Source: Chloroflexota bacterium
GTDB lineage: Bacteria; Chloroflexota; UBA11872; VXOZ01
DNA: 64,000 nucleotides
Assembly: GCA_028874195.1 (NCBI GenBank)
Contig: JAPPLM010000041.1
Span: 1-64,000, forward strand
Direction of reading: 5' to 3'
Each line of letters starts with the position of its first letter. Within the stretch, counting starts at the first letter, position 1. Shown one piece after another: positions 1,731-20,982 of this stretch. The notes below the pieces were generated by a model. That model ran no database searches, had not been told where the DNA came from, and saw only the letters and a list, made by a program, of their open reading frames with translations. Position numbers and translations under genes: made by a program.

Positions 1731-2722
1731 GCGATTGCTACCCACCTCTCCGCGCGACTAGCGTTGAAAGAAGATTCGATGATACGCGTCGTTTTGGCGC
1801 CGTCTTCCCCGGTATAAAGAGGTGGTTCGCCTGACAGGACGCGCGCGCTAAAGTCCTCGACCAGCGGTGAGTGCCTATTCTCGGCGTGCGGGAGGTTGAA
1901 CTCCTCGCTGCCCGCGGCGGTCTTCAGTGTCAGGTGCGATCCGTCGGTCGGCGAACTAAAAAGCGCGCCCTCAGTCCCATACATCTCAATCGTGTCGTGT
2001 CCCATACCGATGCTCCAATGGAAGGAGGCGGTCACTTGAACTCCGCTTGCCATCTTTATGAGCAGAATGTCCGAGTCATCGGCGGGATAGGAGTGAATGA
2101 GCGTTTCGTTGCAGGCGGCTACGGCAACCGGTTCGCCAAACCAATGGCAGAGGAGATCGAGGCGATGGGAACCGACGTCGGCGATAGGCCCGCCGGCGCT
2201 CTTGGCGGGATCGATGCGCCAGTACTTGGGGTCATCAGGCGTGGGATCATAATTGCCGGTGAGAACCATGCGCACCAGGACCGGGGTGCCAATTGCCCCG
2301 CTATCGAGTAACTCCTTGATCTTGATGTTCTTGGGGTAGTACCGGCGATAGTAGGCGATTGCGAGATTCACGCCAGCCTCATCACAGGCTCCGATCATTT
2401 CCGCGCACTCAGCCCCGGTAAGCGCCATAGGTTTTTCACAAAGCACGTGCTTGCCGGCCGCCGCGGCGGCGCTTGTTTGCGGCAGGTGCTCGTACACGCG
2501 GCTCGCGGCGTAGACGACGTCAATATCAGGGTCGGCAAGAAAGGCATCGATGTCACTGTAGGCACGTTGTGCGCCGTGCCGCGCCATAAAGTCCTCCGCC
2601 CGTTCCTGGCTGCTGCTTGCGAAAGCAACGAGGGTGCTGTTCGGATCATCGTTTACCGCCGGCGCAACGGCTTTGTTGGCAATGTCGCCGCAACCAATTA
2701 TGCCCCACCCAACACGTGCCAT
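1727..2722 (-). CDS. Gfo/Idh/MocA family NAD(P)-dependent oxidoreductase
   Basis: A 331-residue protein with an N-terminal Rossmann fold (GWGIIGCGDIANKAV) and the family's catalytic motif CEKPMAL (E96-K97-P98). A C-terminal alpha/beta domain with 'GGPIADVGSHRLDLLCHWFG' supplies the usual D/H substrate-site residues. The family oxidises or reduces cyclic sugars and inositols with NAD(P); the substrate is unknown. The start follows the CsoR-like gene by 3 nt, and its ribosome-binding site (AGAGGAG) lies inside the 3' end of that gene. Its stop overlaps the PLP-enzyme start. The three genes are therefore one operon, headed by the repressor. Confidence 0.9.
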   Translation of the reverse strand: MARVGWGIIGCGDIANKAVAPAVNDDPNSTLVAFASSSQERAEDFMARHGAQRAYSDIDAFLADPDIDVVYAASRVYEHLPQTSAAAAAGKHVLCEKPMALTGAECAEMIGACDEAGVNLAIAYYRRYYPKNIKIKELLDSGAIGTPVLVRMVLTGNYDPTPDDPKYWRIDPAKSAGGPIADVGSHRLDLLCHWFGEPVAVAACNETLIHSYPADDSDILLIKMASGVQVTASFHWSIGMGHDTIEMYGTEGALFSSPTDGSHLTLKTAAGSEEFNLPHAENRHSPLVEDFSARVLSGEPPLYTGEDGAKTTRIIESSFNASRAERWVAIA

Positions 2723-4149: not shown

Positions 4150-5178
4150 TCATCCCGCCGCCACAGGACGCGAACGCGCTAACCGCTCGGCGTAGTTGCG
4201 TGCGTAGTATTCGCCAAAGCTGCCCGACTTGATTGCACGCCACCAGTCCTCATTCTCGACATACCAGTTCACCGTCTCCGCCAGCGCTTGCGGAAACGTG
4301 TACTTTGGCTGCCAGCCGAGGGCTTCCAAGCGCGCTGAATCGAGGCTGTAGCGGTAGTCATGACCGGGCCGGTCTTCAATGAGGCGCATCAGTGAACGGG
4401 GCTTCTCGAGAAGCTCGAGAATGCTTGTGGCAAGTGTTACCGTGTCGACCTCATATTCGACCCCGACGTTATACACTGCGCCGGGCTCTCCTCTGTGCAG
4501 AACAAGATCAATACCCGTGCAGTGGTCGGTAACGTACATATACTCGCGTACCGCCTTGCCTTCTCCGTAGATGGGCAATTGTTCGTCATCTATAGCGTTG
4601 GTTACGAAGACGGGCACCACTTTCTCCGGGTACTGGGAAGGGCCTATGGTGTTCACGCCGCGCGTGACCATTACAGGCAGCCCAAAGCTGGTGAAGTAGG
4701 AGAGGGCCAGCAACTCACCTCCTGCCTTACTGGCAGAATACGGGTTGCGCGGCGCCAAGAGCGTTTGTTCGTTTACGGAGCCATCCGGCACGTGGCCGTA
4801 GACTTCGTCAGTACTCACTTGGACTATCCGCTGCACACTGTGTGTACGCGCCGCCTCCATGAGCACGCGGATTCCCTCCACATTCGTCTTCACGAACGCC
4901 ATCGGATCAATTACTGAGCGGTCTACGTGGCTTTCCGCGGCAAAGTTGACGAGCGCGTCACAGCCGGCCAGCGCTTCTCCAACCGCGTCGGGATCACATA
5001 TATCTGCCTGAACGAACTGAAAGCGGGGATTGCCCTCAAATGCAGCAAGATTAGCGAGGTTGCCTGCATACGTCAGCTTATCCAACGCCACCACGTGGGC
5101 ATCCGGTTGTTTCGAGAGCATGTAGCGTACATAGTTACTTCCAATAAATCCGGCCGCACCAGTTACCAAGATTCGCAT
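4150..5178 (-). CDS. rfbB: dTDP-glucose 4,6-dehydratase
   Basis: A 342-residue extended SDR enzyme converting dTDP-glucose to dTDP-4-keto-6-deoxyglucose, the first committed step to dTDP-rhamnose and related deoxysugars. Visible marks are the NAD-binding GAAGFIG at the N-terminus, the catalytic STDEVYG and the YSASK (YxxxK) motif, plus 'EKVVPVFVTNA' and 'YGEGKAVREYMYVTDH' typical of RmlB. The start at 5178 is set by AAGGAG 8 nt upstream; the in-frame ATG at 5196 lacks proper spacing. It stands alone: no rfbA, rfbC or rfbD is seen in the window. Confidence 0.92.
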   Translation of the reverse strand: MRILVTGAAGFIGSNYVRYMLSKQPDAHVVALDKLTYAGNLANLAAFEGNPRFQFVQADICDPDAVGEALAGCDALVNFAAESHVDRSVIDPMAFVKTNVEGIRVLMEAARTHSVQRIVQVSTDEVYGHVPDGSVNEQTLLAPRNPYSASKAGGELLALSYFTSFGLPVMVTRGVNTIGPSQYPEKVVPVFVTNAIDDEQLPIYGEGKAVREYMYVTDHCTGIDLVLHRGEPGAVYNVGVEYEVDTVTLATSILELLEKPRSLMRLIEDRPGHDYRYSLDSARLEALGWQPKYTFPQALAETVNWYVENEDWWRAIKSGSFGEYYARNYAERLARSRPVAAG

Positions 5179-7184: not shown

Positions 7185-8882
7185 ATGCTCAACGTACGGC
7201 GCCTCTATCTTTTCGTCGCTGCCTTCGTTGGTCTGCTCCTCTTCATGCAGGGCGGCAGCGAGTTGCTGCGGCTGGTATTCCTGATAATCTCTCCGGACAC
7301 CGATCTTGGTGTGGGCAGCGATTGGTGGCGGGAACGCCTGAGCCTAAACCTCGCTCTCGTCGCAGTAGGCGCGCCGCTCTGGGTGGGACATTGGATTTGG
7401 GCGCAACGCCTCGCGCGTGACCGCGCGGAAGAGGGGAGCGCGCTCCGCGCCCTCTATTTTCTCGGCGTGCTCGGCGTAACGATCGTCCAGACTGCCGGCG
7501 CGGCCGGCGAGATTCTCGTCGACCTCCTGGAGCGCCTCGCTGACGAATCCATTGAAACACTCGCCTCTCCGGACTATCTCGCCAATCTGATTATCTACGG
7601 ACTTGTTTGGTTCTACCACATCCGCCAGCGACCGCCCACACATCTCCAAACAGGAGCGGCAGCAACCATTGCGCGTTGGTATTGGTACGTCGTCTCCTTT
7701 GGCAGTTTGGGGATAGTAGTCTCCTCGTTGGTTTTCGTCATCGCAACGCTGCTCAAACGGTTGGTTGGCGCTGATCCCGTTAGCGTCGGCTGGTGGCAAC
7801 TCCCGGTCGTGGAGGGTGTCGCGTATATCATCGTGAGCAGTATCGTCTGGTCGTATCACTGGGCCGCCGTCCAGCGCCAGATCGTGGATGCTCAGAGCCC
7901 TGAGTTACGCTCGACGTTACGCAAGGTCTACCTCTACGCCATGGTGGGCTCCGGCGCGGCGGGCGCTCTCTTGGCAAGTGGACGCATTCTCTATCTGGTC
8001 CTCTTAAGCGTATTGGGCGTGGTTCAGGATCGGCTTGAATTCATCGATAACGCGGCTTGGGTAGTGCCGACGGCGCTTGTAACCGCTACGGGGTGGTACT
8101 ACCATCGCTATCACCTGCAGCGGGATGCGGCCCTGGTAGCGGAATTGCCGCGGCAAGCGTCGATCCGTCGTATATACGCCTATATCCTTACGACCATAGG
8201 CATCTCCCTGCTGGCATTCGGCGCGTACGGTATCCTGCGACTGGTAATAGGAATTCTTACCGGCCAGGCGGACACGGTGGACTTGCCTGAGCATTATTTG
8301 CAGCGGCAACTAAGCCTCTACGTGACGTTGTTGCTGGTGGGTCTTGCCGCCTGGGTGTGGTACTGGCGCCAGATACAGCACCAAGTGGCGTCTGACAGCA
8401 GCGGTGAAGAGCGTCGATCGCTTGTGCGCCGCATCTATCTCTACCTGGTGTCGTCAGCCAGCGTGATTGCCATCGTGGTTGCGATTGGAACGCTGCTCTA
8501 TGAAGCATTGCGCTCCATCCTTGACGTTAGCTCCGTCAACGATTTTAGAGATGCAATGAGCGTTCACGTCAGCGTGGCGCTCATTGCCGTGACGTTTTTG
8601 GTGTATCACGTCCCATTCTTGCGTCGAGAGCATCGGCCTCTCTTAGGACGAAAGGAAAAGCCTGCCCCGGAAGAAGCCTCCTCCACAGTTGGCGGAGCGG
8701 CAGCCGCCGCGGAAGGAGGCAGCCTGGTGGTCACGATAACGGGCGGAGACTTGGAGCAAGCGCGGCAGCTAATCCAACACAGCACCCTGCCCGAGGGCAC
8801 AAGACTTACCTTCACGGAGAGCGCACTGTCGCCTGATGAGGTTCACCAACGGCTGCAAGCGCAAACGGATGACAAGGGATAG
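7185..8882 (+). CDS. Membrane protein with six tandem DUF5671-like two-helix repeats
   Basis: A 565-residue protein built of six units of about 75-85 residues. Each unit starts with a basic-aromatic motif (RRLYLF, RALYFL, ARWYWY, RKVYLY, RRIYAY, RRIYLY), followed by a hydrophobic helix, a polar loop and a second helix ending in a W/Y-H-W/Y motif (for example 'VGHWIW', 'VWFYHI', 'VWSYHW', 'GWYYHR', 'VWYWRQ', 'LVYHVP'). This predicts about 12 transmembrane helices. A cytosolic or periplasmic tail (about residues 485-565) contains an Ala/Glu linker and a small soluble domain. The repeats resemble the DUF5671 family common in Chloroflexota. No function is known; its conserved aromatic/His residues could bind a cofactor (inference). 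Confidence 0.75.
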   Translation: MLNVRRLYLFVAAFVGLLLFMQGGSELLRLVFLIISPDTDLGVGSDWWRERLSLNLALVAVGAPLWVGHWIWAQRLARDRAEEGSALRALYFLGVLGVTIVQTAGAAGEILVDLLERLADESIETLASPDYLANLIIYGLVWFYHIRQRPPTHLQTGAAATIARWYWYVVSFGSLGIVVSSLVFVIATLLKRLVGADPVSVGWWQLPVVEGVAYIIVSSIVWSYHWAAVQRQIVDAQSPELRSTLRKVYLYAMVGSGAAGALLASGRILYLVLLSVLGVVQDRLEFIDNAAWVVPTALVTATGWYYHRYHLQRDAALVAELPRQASIRRIYAYILTTIGISLLAFGAYGILRLVIGILTGQADTVDLPEHYLQRQLSLYVTLLLVGLAAWVWYWRQIQHQVASDSSGEERRSLVRRIYLYLVSSASVIAIVVAIGTLLYEALRSILDVSSVNDFRDAMSVHVSVALIAVTFLVYHVPFLRREHRPLLGRKEKPAPEEASSTVGGAAAAAEGGSLVVTITGGDLEQARQLIQHSTLPEGTRLTFTESALSPDEVHQRLQAQTDDKG

Positions 8883-8978
8883 AACTCCTCTGTTCCTAGA
8901 TCAGCGCCTTCATTCAAGTGTGGCCGCATCGTGCCAATCCCGAAAGGCCGCATCGCCTCGCCGCGAATGAGTGCCCAA

Positions 8979-10043
8979 TTAGGCCCGTACGGGTGCTCGC
9001 AAGTCAGCCAGCGCCGCCACGGCTTCCTGCGCGACGGCTATCGCCGTTTCTACATCTTCCGATGTGATCTGGTGGTACGTCACGAAACGGATGCGATCAT
9101 CGGAGACCGCTCCGCACTTTACGTCGCGCGCTGCCAGTTCTTCGGCAAGCTGTGCCGCGGTGCCAATGGATGGGTCGATGTCGATATAGACCATATTGGT
9201 CGTCGGCTCAGGGTCGGTCGTGATACCCGGAATGCTTCCCAGTCCTTCGCCGAGCCGGCGGGCATTGGCGTGATCCTGGGGAAGTTTCTGCGGGATCGTC
9301 TCCAGGGCGACGATCCCTGCCGCCGCCAATACACCCGATTGCCGCAGTCCGCCACCCAGCATCCGTCGGAACCGTCGTGCCGTCTCGATAAACTCCCTGG
9401 TGCCGCAGACGATTGACCCAACCGGCGCGCTCAGGGCTTTGGACAGGCAGAATGTGACCGAATCGACGTATTGCACGACTTCAGAAACCGGCACTTGCAA
9501 AGCCGCGGCGGCATTGAAGACACGCGCGCCGTCCATGTGGACATTTATGTCTAGTTCATCTGCCAACTCACGTATGCCGGCCAGGGTTTCCAGCGGATAC
9601 ACGGCCCCGCCGCCCCGGTTGTTGGTGTTTTCCAAACAGATCAACCGCGTTGGCGAGAACGCGTCATAGGACCGGCGCAGCACGCTGCGGATGCTGTCAG
9701 CCGTCAGAATGCCTTGATCGGAAGGCGCGATGCGCGGCGACGCGCCCGCCACGCAGGCAAAGTCACCGGCCTCCGTAGTTACGATATGGGATTCGTCTGC
9801 CACGATGAACTCATCCCCATTGCGGCATTGGGCCACGAGACAGACGAGATTGCCCTGTGTCCCACTCGTAACAAAGAGCGCCGCCTCTTTGCCCGTGATC
9901 TCAGCGGCCATCGCTTCCAACCGATTAATTGACGGGTCTTCCCGATAGCAGTCATCACCGACTTCCGCATTCGCCATCGCCTCGCGCATTTCCGCCGTCG
10001 GCATGCTCACGGTATCGCTGCGCAGATCAATTGTTCGAGACAT
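8979..10043 (-). CDS. ltaE: Low-specificity L-threonine aldolase
   Basis: A 354-residue fold-type I PLP enzyme that cleaves L-threonine or L-allo-threonine to glycine and acetaldehyde. The N-terminus IDLRSDTVSMPTAEMREAM is characteristic. D171 in HMDGARV pairs with the pyridine nitrogen, and K202 in CLSKALSAPVGS is the Schiff-base lysine. The length is normal. The start has AAGGGAG 7 nt upstream. It is on its own, divergent from neighbouring transcription units, although the same window also has a D-threonine-aldolase-like gene at 633-1730. Confidence 0.92.
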   Translation of the reverse strand: MSRTIDLRSDTVSMPTAEMREAMANAEVGDDCYREDPSINRLEAMAAEITGKEAALFVTSGTQGNLVCLVAQCRNGDEFIVADESHIVTTEAGDFACVAGASPRIAPSDQGILTADSIRSVLRRSYDAFSPTRLICLENTNNRGGGAVYPLETLAGIRELADELDINVHMDGARVFNAAAALQVPVSEVVQYVDSVTFCLSKALSAPVGSIVCGTREFIETARRFRRMLGGGLRQSGVLAAAGIVALETIPQKLPQDHANARRLGEGLGSIPGITTDPEPTTNMVYIDIDPSIGTAAQLAEELAARDVKCGAVSDDRIRFVTYHQITSEDVETAIAVAQEAVAALADLRAPVRA

Positions 10044-16974: not shown

Positions 16975-17427
16975 TCAGCGCGAATGGCCGACAAGGCTCG
17001 TGGCGGTAACCACCCGTTCTGCAACTTCCTCGGTTACCTCGCCATCAGGCTTTCTGGGGATGACAAACGCGCGGCTGTTTATATCTGTATCCACTACCTG
17101 CAACGACTCTTCCGGTCCCAAATCCGTGCCCATTTGCCGCAGCCAAGCGGCGGGATCGCGCAGAATCGCGGCTTTGTATTCGGAGTCTTTCCAATAGTGG
17201 GGAGCCGCGCCTAAGAAAGACGGATAACAGCTACATGGCGTGCAAATCACCATGTGGTGCGTGGCGTCGGTGTTGTCATAGACCGCCAGAGACAAGTGTG
17301 CCGGCACGTCGATGTCAAGTTCCTTTAGGGCGCCACGGGGATCGCGCAGCAACTGACTTCTAAAGTCATCGTTCTGCCAAGCACGCAAGATGACCCTACG
17401 CGCCTCAATGTTGTCAGCCTCTTGCAT
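16975..17427 (-). CDS. Orphan nitrile hydratase alpha-subunit-like protein
   Basis: A 150-residue protein closely following the nitrile hydratase/thiocyanate hydrolase alpha(gamma)-type fold: 'ARRVILRAWQNDDFRSQLL', then HHMVICTPCSCYP, then 'YWKDSEYKAAILRDPAAWL', 'RAFVIPRKPDG' and a C-terminal 'ATSLVG'. The Cys62-x-x-Cys65-Ser66-Cys67 claw that binds low-spin Co(III) or Fe(III) is complete. True alpha subunits are about 200 residues and have a beta-subunit gene next door; here the protein is shorter and no beta gene is in the window. It might act alone, be a metal-binding homologue, or relate to NHase-like RiPP leader (NHLP) proteins, although these normally lack the full claw and end in a leader cleavage site. 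A strong AAGGAGG site precedes the ATG. Confidence 0.8.
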   Translation of the reverse strand: MQEADNIEARRVILRAWQNDDFRSQLLRDPRGALKELDIDVPAHLSLAVYDNTDATHHMVICTPCSCYPSFLGAAPHYWKDSEYKAAILRDPAAWLRQMGTDLGPEESLQVVDTDINSRAFVIPRKPDGEVTEEVAERVVTATSLVGHSR

Positions 17428-17919
17428 GTGCCGCCTCCTTCAGCATTCCAAATTAGCATATCACATCCTTACGGTATGACCCCGGCAGCGCACCTGTTGC
17501 CGTCGGTTAGGTCAACGGACGCCAGAAGGCGTGGCACCGCACGGCTCTGCCCTCAACAGGACTCTTGCGCCCAGGGCCCCAGACAACCATAATCGAAGTG
17601 GACGATCCCAAACATCCCAATGCATTTGGGCCGGCAGGCAAGCGCGGAAGAAACGTGTTCTTGGGCCGTTTGCCATGGTTTGAGCAATCAGCCTGAGAGG
17701 CACTGACCGCGTAAGGGCTGCCCTCGAACTCACTCCGCGCATTGCATGCGAACAGCTAGGCACAGTAGCGTTCACCCATAGGAGTGTCAGGCTGTGGACA
17801 CGTTTGCTGTCTGGGACAAGTGATTCTAGTAGGGTCCGTGCTATGTCCCCAACCAATGCAAGTGATGACTTTCTCGAATCGGTCATAGGCCTCTGATGTC
17901 CGAGGGCAGCGCATCTGCT
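17428..17919 (-). other. 492-bp interval without a confident gene
   Basis: Between the HTH/TPR gene and the nitrile-hydratase-like gene. A TGnTATGCT extended -10 for the downstream gene is visible on the minus strand at 17455-17463. A plus-strand open stretch ending near 17697 (with 'IIEVDDPKHPNAFGPAGK') and a minus-strand 124-codon frame at 17512-17886 both lack a good start, ribosome-binding site or recognised family. This may be decayed sequence. Confidence 0.4.
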
Positions 17920-19560
17920 TTAGTTGCACTTAACCAGTTCCAGCAGACGATTACACTTATTGGAGGCTCCCACGTGGCGGGCTATCTTGCGATACCGGTT
18001 GAACTTGACACTATCGCCCGTCTGCCACGCGGCGACCGCAGCTGCCACCACGATATGCGGGTTATCCGCGTTCAGTTCCAGTGACGACTCAAGGGCCGGG
18101 AGACATTCGGTAAACTCTCCCAATTCCCAGAGCGCCATGCCCAACGCATTGTAGTAGTTGGAATCGAGAGGTCCACACTCCGGTCTGACACTCCGAAGGT
18201 GCCGAACCGCTTCCCTTTCTCTGCCGCTCTCGAGCAGTAGCCATCCGATTTCAGTCCAGGGCACAATCCATTTCGGGTCCAAAGTTGCCGCGAGCCAGCA
18301 CGCCTCCAGACCCTCAGCAACAAGGGCCTCGTCCCCGTTTCTCGCGCCTACGGTTCCCTTGACCGACCCCAAGGTGAAGTGGTTGGCAGGGTCCAGGGGA
18401 TCCAGTTCGGCCGCTTTAGCCACCTCAGCCAGGGCTTCGTCTATTCTCCCCTGTATCTGCAACTCCATGGAACGCCGGTAGTGAGCGTGAGCTTTGGGGT
18501 TGCTGATATCCCAATCCTTGAGAACGCGTCCATCGGTCTCCCGGATCAGAGCGTCCACCTCGGCCTGATCAATTTGGAGGTTGACGCCCAGCACCCGGTG
18601 GACCCAATCCGAGCCGGCCGCCAAGAGGTCTTCTTTCCATACGTCGTTTGGTTCGCTATTAATCAGAGCAGTCAGCAACAGCCCTGCGAAACGAGAGTGG
18701 GCGCCAAGTTTCACGAGGTTAGCGAAGACGGTAGGGCGAGGTTCGGTAAAGGTTTCTTCGTCGATGAAACGGTACACCAGTGATGCATACCGGCGTAGCT
18801 GTCCGACTATCTCACCTACGGCTTCAGTCCCGATGAACTGTTCCAGAATTTCGGCGACGTCACTGATCCAATAGAGTGCCCTGAGGTCTCGGACTAAGCG
18901 ATTCCGCTCGGACGGCTCACTCTTCGAAGCCAAAGCCGTCGCTATTCTCGCGAGATTCTCGTCGGATGGCCGGGCGCCATGGTACAGCCACGCTTCTACC
19001 GTCTTGTCATTCACTTCTACTGCCTCGACAAAGCTGTTCAAAGAGATCCCCACTTTGCTGCGTTTGGAGTTGAGATATGCCCCTCGGCGGTTGACGTTAA
19101 TCCAATTGAGGAGATCCAGCACGGTCAGGGACGCTCCTACAAGGTGAATATGGGCAGCGACTCTCAGGGCCAGGTCAATGACAGCAAGTCTGACGTACGC
19201 TTGCCAGACGGCAGGGAGATGGTGTGGCAGGACCCGCATCATTCTGGGTCGCAGGAAAGCTCTCAACCGATCCCAGTTGACCGCATGTTGGTCGATTATG
19301 GTAGCCAGCGCGGGAGAAGCGGATAAACCCTCATCCCCGACTGGAGGTGTCGCAGCCAGTCCAACGTTGACCAATGCGTCGGCAATAGCCCCAATGATCT
19401 CCGCGCGGCTGGATTCCTTCACTTGGTTTTTTAAGTGTCCCGAGAAGTAGCGGCGAGCCGTCCTGGACTGTATCCTGGGGTCGCTGATGCCTAAACTCTT
19501 GGCAAAGAATCCCAATATCTGCCCGCTGGTAGGTAATTGTGGCGTAACTTCCGGTTCCAC
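17920..19560 (-). CDS. HTH-like and TPR protein downstream of viperin
   Basis: A 546-residue protein I do not recognise as a named family. Residues 13-45 ('GFFAKSLGISDPRIQSRTAR') and 173-211 ('SLNSFVEAVEVNDKTVEAW', then 'GARPSDENLARIATAL') look like helix-turn-helix segments; the second has the classic XRE pattern. The middle (215-345) is helical. Residues 357-515 form about four tetratricopeptide-like repeats ('AHAHYRRSMELQIQGRIDEA', 'NYYNALGMALWELGEFTECL'). No enzyme motif is seen. It starts with GTG 59 bp after the viperin stop, same strand, with no terminator between, so it is likely cotranscribed. It could be a regulator or sensor of the viperin module (inference). Confidence 0.65.
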   Translation of the reverse strand: MEPEVTPQLPTSGQILGFFAKSLGISDPRIQSRTARRYFSGHLKNQVKESSRAEIIGAIADALVNVGLAATPPVGDEGLSASPALATIIDQHAVNWDRLRAFLRPRMMRVLPHHLPAVWQAYVRLAVIDLALRVAAHIHLVGASLTVLDLLNWINVNRRGAYLNSKRSKVGISLNSFVEAVEVNDKTVEAWLYHGARPSDENLARIATALASKSEPSERNRLVRDLRALYWISDVAEILEQFIGTEAVGEIVGQLRRYASLVYRFIDEETFTEPRPTVFANLVKLGAHSRFAGLLLTALINSEPNDVWKEDLLAAGSDWVHRVLGVNLQIDQAEVDALIRETDGRVLKDWDISNPKAHAHYRRSMELQIQGRIDEALAEVAKAAELDPLDPANHFTLGSVKGTVGARNGDEALVAEGLEACWLAATLDPKWIVPWTEIGWLLLESGREREAVRHLRSVRPECGPLDSNYYNALGMALWELGEFTECLPALESSLELNADNPHIVVAAAVAAWQTGDSVKFNRYRKIARHVGASNKCNRLLELVKCN

Positions 19561-19619
19561 TGCTCCCTCTTTATCTTCTAAATTGCTGCTTCCGAATCCA
19601 CTTCTTTCACCAGTTCATT

Positions 19620-20489
19620 CTACCAATCATATCGGCCGTTCCTCGACAGGAATTTCTCGGGGTCCACCGACACGTCCCGCAATGCTTCTTCCACACCCCC
19701 CTTGATGATGGAGCGGCTGTAGGTATGGTCCCCCGCCACGTTATCGAAGAACCTACCCGCAGGGTCCACCATCACGTAGCTCCCGGTCATCAGGTCGTTA
19801 TTCTCTGGCACCACCGTGATTCCGTATGCCTCAACCCACCGATTTGACCGGACGTAATCATCGAATTCATAGGTAGAAACTACGAACTTGCCCACGGTAT
19901 GATCGTTTTGTCCCTTGACGGGGAGCACCTGGAGCAGTTTCCACCGTTCGGGGCGAGCCTTTAGTATGAAGTCCGCGAGATTCTCTTGCAGATTGCCCTG
20001 CGTCACCACCGTGTTGATTTTCACACGGACTAGATGTTGCTTAAGGATATCAATTGCGCGCAAGTAATCATGCTCACTCATGGGACCGGACCGTGTTTCC
20101 CGGCCCGTCCGCGACAGCGTACTTGGATTCACCGAGTCTATGCTTAACGCAACCCAATCGAGACTCCCGTTGACACTCTTGAGCCATTCCGCCGTAATGC
20201 GGCTCCCGTTGGTTACCACCGAAGTGGTGAGTCCCAGTATCTTGGCCCACCTGATCAGGTCGGGCAACCAGGGACAGAGTGTGGGTTCGCCACCGGCAAA
20301 GTTGATCTTTCTAAAACCGGCTTGGGCGAGGGACTCCACCACTGAAAGGCAATCCTCACGTCCAAGATGTCCCTTGGGCAGGATATTTGAGTGAATGTCC
20401 TGGAAGGTTGCAAAGCAAAAACCGCATTTCATGTTGCAGGGCTTCCAGAGGTGGTAGTTGACAGACGGCACCTGATTCGCAATTCTCAT
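19620..20489 (-). CDS. Prokaryotic viperin, radical SAM ddhNTP synthase
   Basis: A 289-residue radical SAM enzyme. 'SVNYHLWKPCNMKCGFCF' carries the Cys18-x3-Cys22-x2-Cys25 cluster motif in the exact viperin context, followed by KINFAGGEPTL (SAM-binding GGEP), 'SVVTNGSRI', 'ALSIDS', 'VKINTVVT', 'ERWKLLQVLPVKGQND', then 'DPAGRFFDN' and a C-terminal 'FLSRNGRYDW'. Each of these has a direct counterpart in animal viperin (for example SVNYHF..CNYKCGFCF, KINFSGGEP, RWKVFQCL..GEN, FL.RGGKYxW). Known prokaryotic viperins convert CTP, UTP or GTP to 3'-deoxy-3',4'-didehydro nucleotides that terminate phage transcription. The eukaryotic amphipathic N-terminal helix is absent, as expected. GAGGAG precedes the ATG. 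No nucleotide kinase lies beside it; its partner is the HTH/TPR gene. Confidence 0.93.
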   Translation of the reverse strand: MRIANQVPSVNYHLWKPCNMKCGFCFATFQDIHSNILPKGHLGREDCLSVVESLAQAGFRKINFAGGEPTLCPWLPDLIRWAKILGLTTSVVTNGSRITAEWLKSVNGSLDWVALSIDSVNPSTLSRTGRETRSGPMSEHDYLRAIDILKQHLVRVKINTVVTQGNLQENLADFILKARPERWKLLQVLPVKGQNDHTVGKFVVSTYEFDDYVRSNRWVEAYGITVVPENNDLMTGSYVMVDPAGRFFDNVAGDHTYSRSIIKGGVEEALRDVSVDPEKFLSRNGRYDW

Positions 20490-20832
20490 ATTGCTGCTCC
20501 TCGAATAGCTACGGATCCATGCGCTAGACTAATTTAATTGTAAGGAGCAATCTTCCCTGACCGATACCCCAGTCGAACGGACAATTTCTGGATCGGACAT
20601 GTGGATGCGAAGGAACAATTGCCAATCAGGGCTGGGATTTACTGACAGTGTTGAAACCAGTCAAGCATTGTGGGATCGGACTCGGCGCGCTGCTGCCCAA
20701 GTCTTATGCTAAGCATGAGAGAGTTATTTCTTTGCATCAGTAGTATGTTGCTCCAATGCCGAGGCCCCCTTTTTGCTTCACCTCTAGCAACCCCAAACGC
20801 TCTCTGCAACAGTCCCCACACGCACTCCCATC
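20490..20832. other. Intergenic region between viperin and the tRNA-Gly promoter
   Basis: About 340 bp containing the viperin leader (AT-rich near 20530-20545) and no convincing ORF. No clear sigma70 hexamer pair for viperin was found. A tRNA-Gly promoter begins at 20833. Confidence 0.5.
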
Positions 20833-20879: not shown

Positions 20880-20951
20880 GCGGAAGTGGCTCAGTGGTAG
20901 AGCATCACCTTGCCAAGGTGAGGGTCACGGGTTCGAATCCCGTCTTCCGCT
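20880..20951 (+). tRNA. tRNA-Gly (GCC)
   Basis: A cloverleaf is readable: acceptor arms GCGGAAG and CTTCCGC pair perfectly, the anticodon stem CACCT/AGGTG encloses the loop TTGCCAA with anticodon GCC, and the T-arm holds GGTTCGAATCC. The discriminator is T; CCA is not encoded. It is followed by a terminator-like hairpin and then the trigger factor gene. Confidence 0.97.
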
Positions 20952-20982
20952 CCCGGCGGCTCACATAACGCCGACGTTGGTG

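Follow-up and report, generated by a model that had tools for sequence, protein, structure and literature searches.

A prokaryotic viperin followed by an HTH/TPR protein in Chloroflexota: a putative mobile defence operon with a conserved operator-like motif

The stretch of DNA analysed here, called the window below, comprises 64,000 nucleotides from a Chloroflexota bacterium. On its reverse strand, close to a tRNA-Gly gene, a viperin gene is followed by a gene encoding a protein with HTH and TPR regions; the coordinates and strand of both reading frames, the 59-bp gap between them and the 546-residue length of the second product agree with those given by an initial sequence-only reading of this DNA. 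The features that the argument needs are the following:

17469-20828, no strand: insert of about 3.36 kb with both genes of the pair; four sister genomes lack it at this site
17920-19560, minus strand: gene of the HTH/TPR partner (546 aa, beginning with GTG), second in the operon, 59 bp downstream of viperin
18013-18498, minus strand: C-terminal TPR array of the partner, residues 355-516 (about 357-516), from Pfam TPR families
18928-19095, minus strand: XRE/HTH_3-type DNA-binding domain of the partner, residues 156-211, predicted from a Pfam match in an orthologue, fold matches and alignment
19620-20489, minus strand: prokaryotic viperin (radical SAM), 289 aa, ATG start
20537-20542, minus strand: predicted -10 box, TACAAT; the motif starts 42 bp before it
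20561-20566, minus strand: position of the -35 box, TATCGG, a poor match that shares 3 bp with the end of the motif
20564-20584, minus strand: TTGTCC-GTTCGAC-TGGGG-TAT, an operator-like motif whose start lies 95 bp before the ATG of viperin; no binding data
20880-20953, plus strand: tRNA-Gly(gcc) bordering the insert, in the same place in sister genomes

Prokaryotic viperins (pVips) were reportedly described by Bernheim and colleagues in 2021. By every test available to sequence comparison, the first gene of the pair encodes a true member of this group: (i), the NCBIfam model NF038283 matches the protein over its whole length with 298.5 bits (cut-off 180), the MoaA model reaching only 70 bits; (ii), the PADLOC pVip models match it at 3e-87 and 3e-106; (iii), viperins in the PDB match at 1e-39 to 1e-42 and MoaA at about 1e-5; and (iv), the CX3CX2C cluster motif lies at residues 18, 22 and 25, and the protein has the same residues as mouse viperin for the cluster cysteines and for N77, K120, K220, N222, R245, K247, E293 and Y302 (mouse numbering), which we take to be the residues of the nucleotide site. 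Like other pVips, it differs from the mouse protein where the alignment places S124 and K319. In a phylogenetic tree, the viperins of the pair form one clade (96/94) nested among plasmid pVips, with the Thiodictyon viperin as its sister (88/91); the root split between viperins and other radical SAM proteins is weak (71/43), because the outgroup branches are long. The sequence-only reading had identified the protein as a viperin and would have been refuted by a position outside the viperin clade; the profile and structure matches, the conserved core residues and the tree all uphold it. Production of ddhNTPs by this protein is inferred. The best-scoring PADLOC profile, PDLC02905, is that of a kinase-fusion viperin, and it scores over its viperin part only; we rejected this assignment since no kinase adjoins the gene, the downstream neighbour being the HTH/TPR gene. 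Upstream of viperin, as far as the tRNA-Gly, no gene with a family match was found.

The GTG start of the second gene is supported by its relatives, which begin MxEREV at the same aligned residue. Its product is modelled as an all-helical protein with a C-terminal TPR array, and the Pfam TPR families found at residues ~357-516 bear out the C-terminal TPRs noticed at the outset. Two HTH-like segments had also been proposed: one stands, as an XRE HTH at residues ~156-211, and the other, which probably corresponds to N-terminal helices at residues ~12-65, has no family match. The XRE-type fold of residues 156-211 is supported by prediction. HTH_3 (PF01381) was not found in the window protein itself and scored 23.5, against a gathering score of 23, in its closest relative, the orthologue of a second Chloroflexota genome, G245; the DicA model matched the window domain weakly (E=0.086). 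A Foldseek search with helices 156-211 of the model returned ClgR, C.AhdI, C.BclI, P22 c2, the lambda repressor (CI) and CapH, at a probability of about 1 and E values of 0.3-1, which are expected because the domain has only 55 residues. In the alignment, T187, W191, R197 and P198 are invariant across the viperin-linked proteins and the remote members of the family described below, T187 and W191 being kept in the predicted recognition helix of both groups. A fold search with the full model retrieved generic TPR superhelices only, IFIT1 included, and was deemed uninformative. PADLOC gave no match for the window partner; one of its relatives matched the generic TPR model PDLC01171, through its TPRs only. 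The relatives are longer (852-856 aa) and carry a C-terminal TPR extension of ~310 residues; the window partner ends just before the point where this extension starts, and no remnant of it was found downstream.

Among 400 Chloroflexota genomes, a viperin at viperin-like score (~280-290 bits, the next score being 98) occurs in only two, the window's own and G245, which belongs to a different family of the same class. Close relatives of the partner are confined to the same two genomes of this set, and the genes adjoin in both, the G245 viperin and partner being 69% and 54% identical to those of the window. A scan of 84,980 species with the partner alignment, using two short peptide patterns, brought three close relatives beyond G245. 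One comes from a Dehalococcoidia MAG (L083), where viperin lies directly upstream of the partner (67% and 51% identity to the window, respectively). The other two are copies in SAR202 bin22, in which only a few bases of each contig precede the partner (L084:42-2612 and L085:42-2612); the viperin C-terminus, RDGLYDW, stands in another frame just before the partner in both copies, and the N-terminal 213 residues of viperin are found at the ends of two other contigs (L089 and L091), a split that would be expected of an assembly broken inside a stretch common to both copies. All close partner relatives found (about 49-54% identity to the window) follow viperin on the same strand, at five loci in four genomes, and the two genes diverge in parallel between genomes (65-79% identity for viperin, 49-69% for the partner). 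Other members of the pair may have been missed because the sampling was MAG-based and the scan relied on two short patterns. No partner was found in viral contigs or plasmid records and no viperin in phage records; the plasmid viperins inspected adjoin kinases (nucleotide kinases among them), restriction systems or unknown genes.

Gene order and sequence divergence indicate that the partnership, which had been inferred from spacing, is real: the pair recurs in other Chloroflexota in the same order and on the same strand. Since unrelated genes are mixed in defence islands, the two might have come to lie side by side by chance, but the identical order, strand and tight spacing at five loci in four genomes, with partners 49-54% identical to that of the window, together with the single viperin clade and the matching divergence of the two genes, effectively refute such an accident, to which we give almost no credence.

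The alignment of the window with the sister genome G077 (L100) stops at 17468 and starts again at 20829, next to the tRNA-Gly. Neither viperin nor partner separates the flanking genes in four sister genomes of the genus, with the same order in L102, L103 and L104; as gene order is kept on both flanks, the contig is not chimeric. No shared 9-mer or longer, as direct repeats would leave, was found in the insert ends searched. At 16975-17427 (minus strand) the window encodes an NHLP-leader/nitrile-hydratase-alpha-like RiPP precursor that is kept in the sister genomes, and in the sister genome G117 the spot between the NHLP gene and the tRNA-Gly holds an unidentified ORF of 281 aa (L103, reverse complement, 8680-9525). 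This spot is possibly an insertion hotspot. In other genomes the pair sits in defence islands wherever its flanks were readable: in G245 it adjoins a CBASS cyclase, a 2TM effector and a type IIG R-M system, and in L083 it has a type IIG/Snf2 pair on one side and a Druantia DruA-helicase block on the other. The G245 CBASS pair (a CD-NTase cyclase and the 2TM effector) is found at L061 6399-7913, ~1.9 kb upstream of the viperin pair, and the Druantia-like block of L083 (12652-21628) consists of DruA, a DEAD/MZB helicase of 1809 aa and another large ORF. A partner never seen beside viperin or other defence genes elsewhere would have spoken against the sequence-only reading; these two islands meet that objection. 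As judged from these comparisons, viperin and its partner are a putative mobile defence module, inserted as a block.

Upstream of viperin, the five pair loci have little in common save a TTGTCC-N5-ACTGGGG block. It belongs to a 21-bp motif, TTGTCC-N7-TKGGRCTG, which is conserved 92-95 bp before the ATG at all five loci (degenerate in G245, where the left half reads CTGGCC) and contains an imperfect dyad, about GTCC-N9-GGRC. When four independent upstream regions were shuffled, an in-register 7-mer common to all arose in 0 of 20,000 trials, and the 18-bp form of the motif occurs a single time in the 3.5-Mb genome of the window. The same motif lies upstream of operons of remote HTH/TPR homologues (G249, L086, G033 and G077; 25-32% identity) that have no viperin. 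Dinucleotide shuffles of 450-bp stretches equalled the observed match at the four remote loci in 2, 114, 0 and 0 cases of 4000; these counts allow an N8 spacing that was admitted after G033 had been seen, and N7 alone gives 1, 55, 16 and 28. The initial definition, N7 or N8 before TGGG, was replaced by N7 before TKGGR, which is constant in all loci. Exact genome-wide matches to the 21-mer are limited to these operons and one site inside a SAR202 gene. Matches in L119, L120, L121 and L123 were considered as further operons and rejected, most of them lying inside ORFs and none being seen with the promoter arrangement.

That arrangement is fixed. A -10 hexamer (TACGAT, TAAGAT, TATACT or TACCAT) begins precisely 41 bp after the start of the motif at six of the seven independent loci, and at a distance of 42 bp in the window; at other offsets TANNNT never occurs in three or more loci. 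The spacer between -35 and -10 is 17 bp, and the -35 boxes have 1-5 mismatches to TTGACA, that of most relatives being CTGACN, the first three bases of which are the last three of the motif. At the remote loci, a small acidic ORF with the consensus MSxxSDxDNHAxQxNxNxDAYWESRGxDERPDDW precedes each HTH/TPR gene, in the slot that viperin takes in the pair, and the motif lies upstream of that ORF. These ORFs (46-55 aa, NPNNDAYWESRGxDERPDDW) are:

L062 ~9512-9680: small acidic ORF
L086 ~4684-4850: small acidic ORF
L063 ~1863-2002, minus strand: small acidic ORF
L064 ~9573-9713: small acidic ORF

The small ORF has no Pfam, PHROG or NCBIfam match. It has relatives on plasmids of Pseudomonas, Thioclava, Vibrio and Cereibacter, the Vibrio copy adjoining a TIR protein, and no HTH/TPR gene is evident near it in the annotation of these proteobacterial plasmids. 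The remote HTH/TPR gene of G077 (L064 9831-11578) is split by a frameshift or an assembly error.

Because the same arrangement precedes remote homologues without viperin, the motif goes with the HTH/TPR family and not with viperin. Most simply, the HTH/TPR protein would bind the motif and control its own operon, since the motif accompanies the family with either first gene; DNA binding is strongly inferred, without binding data. The suggestion that the partner controls viperin thus draws strong support, short of binding data, from an operator and promoter shared with HTH/TPR operons that lack viperin. The other role once proposed for it, a second effector, gained none. A second effector, or a viperin cofactor such as a TPR scaffold or an adaptor for the nucleotide product, with some other host factor binding the motif, would have precedents in viperins that adjoin HicA/RelE toxins as second effectors (PMC10865869) or nucleotide kinases. 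However, the motif is also present at operons of the HTH/TPR family that have no viperin, and profile and fold searches found no enzyme or toxin domain in the partner; we regard this role as improbable.

We consider it probable, in the absence of binding or expression data, that the partner is a transcription factor of the XRE type controlling the operon that encodes both viperin and itself, most likely by activating it, with its TPRs as the signal receptor. The locus would then be a two-gene mobile antiviral operon encoding a viperin that makes chain-terminating ddh-nucleotides, followed by its HTH/TPR transcription factor. This protein would bind the imperfect dyad in TTGTCC-N7-TKGGRCTG, directly upstream of a weak -35, and so occupy a class II activator position resembling that of lambda CI at PRM, a class II site beside a weak -35. 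Upon meeting a phage or stress cue, the TPR region would raise the expression of both viperin and regulator; by analogy with TPR-bearing XRE regulators, the TPRs may be the natural place for signal input. Activation rather than repression is inferred, as is signal sensing by the TPRs, and sensing of infection has not been shown. The main rival is a repressor that silences viperin as long as the cell is uninfected and lets go when its TPRs receive a phage signal, in the manner of CapH or a phage repressor. The XRE/CI-like fold, with CapH and the lambda repressor among its matches, is compatible with this, a site that borders and touches the -35 could equally serve repression, and autoregulated repressors of toxic effectors are common. 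But activation is favoured by the poor -35 boxes and by a site that precedes the -35/-10 core instead of covering it. We prefer an activator because a site next to a weak -35 is a class II position, and hold repression to be unlikely without dismissing it.

The window promoter, with its poor -35, may be weak or altered. Because of this -35 and the short form of its partner, the window copy may be partly impaired or less active than its relatives. The two SAR202 copies are near-identical (dS ~0.1) between a point ~346 bp upstream of viperin and about codon 565 of the partner, while their C-terminal TPR extensions have diverged (68% amino acid identity, dS 0.83). Because it has diverged in this way while the remainder has not, the extension behaves as a separate, exchangeable module; either the cassette was swapped or the rest underwent gene conversion. 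The association with two kinds of first gene suggests that one HTH/TPR family controls different effectors, and the operator could therefore be used to find further cargos. A bolder reading, which we hold to be somewhat less likely than not, is that the HTH/TPR proteins are a portable family of sensor-regulators whose own operator serves interchangeable cargos in the first position (viperin in one lineage, the small acidic protein in others), that the TPR extension is an exchangeable recognition cassette and that viperin is inducible by infection through a one-component bacterial sensor. If true, this would be a bacterial functional parallel to the interferon induction of animal viperin.

The products of viperin poison RNA synthesis, and how prokaryotic viperins are switched on is, to our knowledge, an open question. 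The window viperin is probably switched on and off by its own dedicated regulator, a control that is not described in the literature we searched. With a candidate regulator named, a 21-bp site defined and the promoter geometry fixed, the switching of a viperin becomes testable at this locus.

Each part of this system has likenesses among known ones. With RRNPP-type TPR-bearing XRE regulators (AimR, PlcR) the partner shares the one-component layout of HTH and TPRs, but its HTH is internal (156-211), after an unknown domain of ~150 residues, no signal peptide gene was seen and there is no sequence match. The C proteins of R-M systems (C.AhdI, C.Esp1396I) have an XRE HTH of similar predicted fold and are likewise regulators in the operon of the defence effector that they would control, with a site next to the -35; whereas they have ~80 aa, lack TPRs and lie upstream of the endonuclease, the partner has 546-856 aa and lies downstream of viperin. 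HTH control of an antiphage operon is common to CBASS CapH/CapP, CapH being a fold match and control by the partner being inferred; no CapP-like peptidase was seen at the pair, where TPRs would replace the peptidase as sensor. A 2026 survey lists a viperin type with a TPR protein as exclusive to Archaea, citing Bernheim et al. 2021 (PMC12988326). A TPR gene beside viperin is what that type has in common with the window locus; the window pair is bacterial (Chloroflexota) and its partner has an XRE HTH, and homology between the TPR proteins is undetermined. The general idea of a viperin with a TPR protein is thus already known and not new. The bacterial pair, the HTH, the operator and the small-ORF cargo appear undescribed in the literature searched, key pVip papers lying outside that search. 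On an archaeal plasmid, of Methanomethylovorans (L095 4290-7825), a viperin has a 473-aa protein with an ArsR-type HTH upstream and a SEC-C protein downstream, a possible further HTH-viperin pairing. With the pVips (NF038283) as a whole, the window type shares a full-length viperin, the core residues, a rare and patchy distribution, mobile insertion and a place in defence islands; it differs in that viperin is always followed by the HTH/TPR gene, under a conserved operator, with no adjoining kinase.
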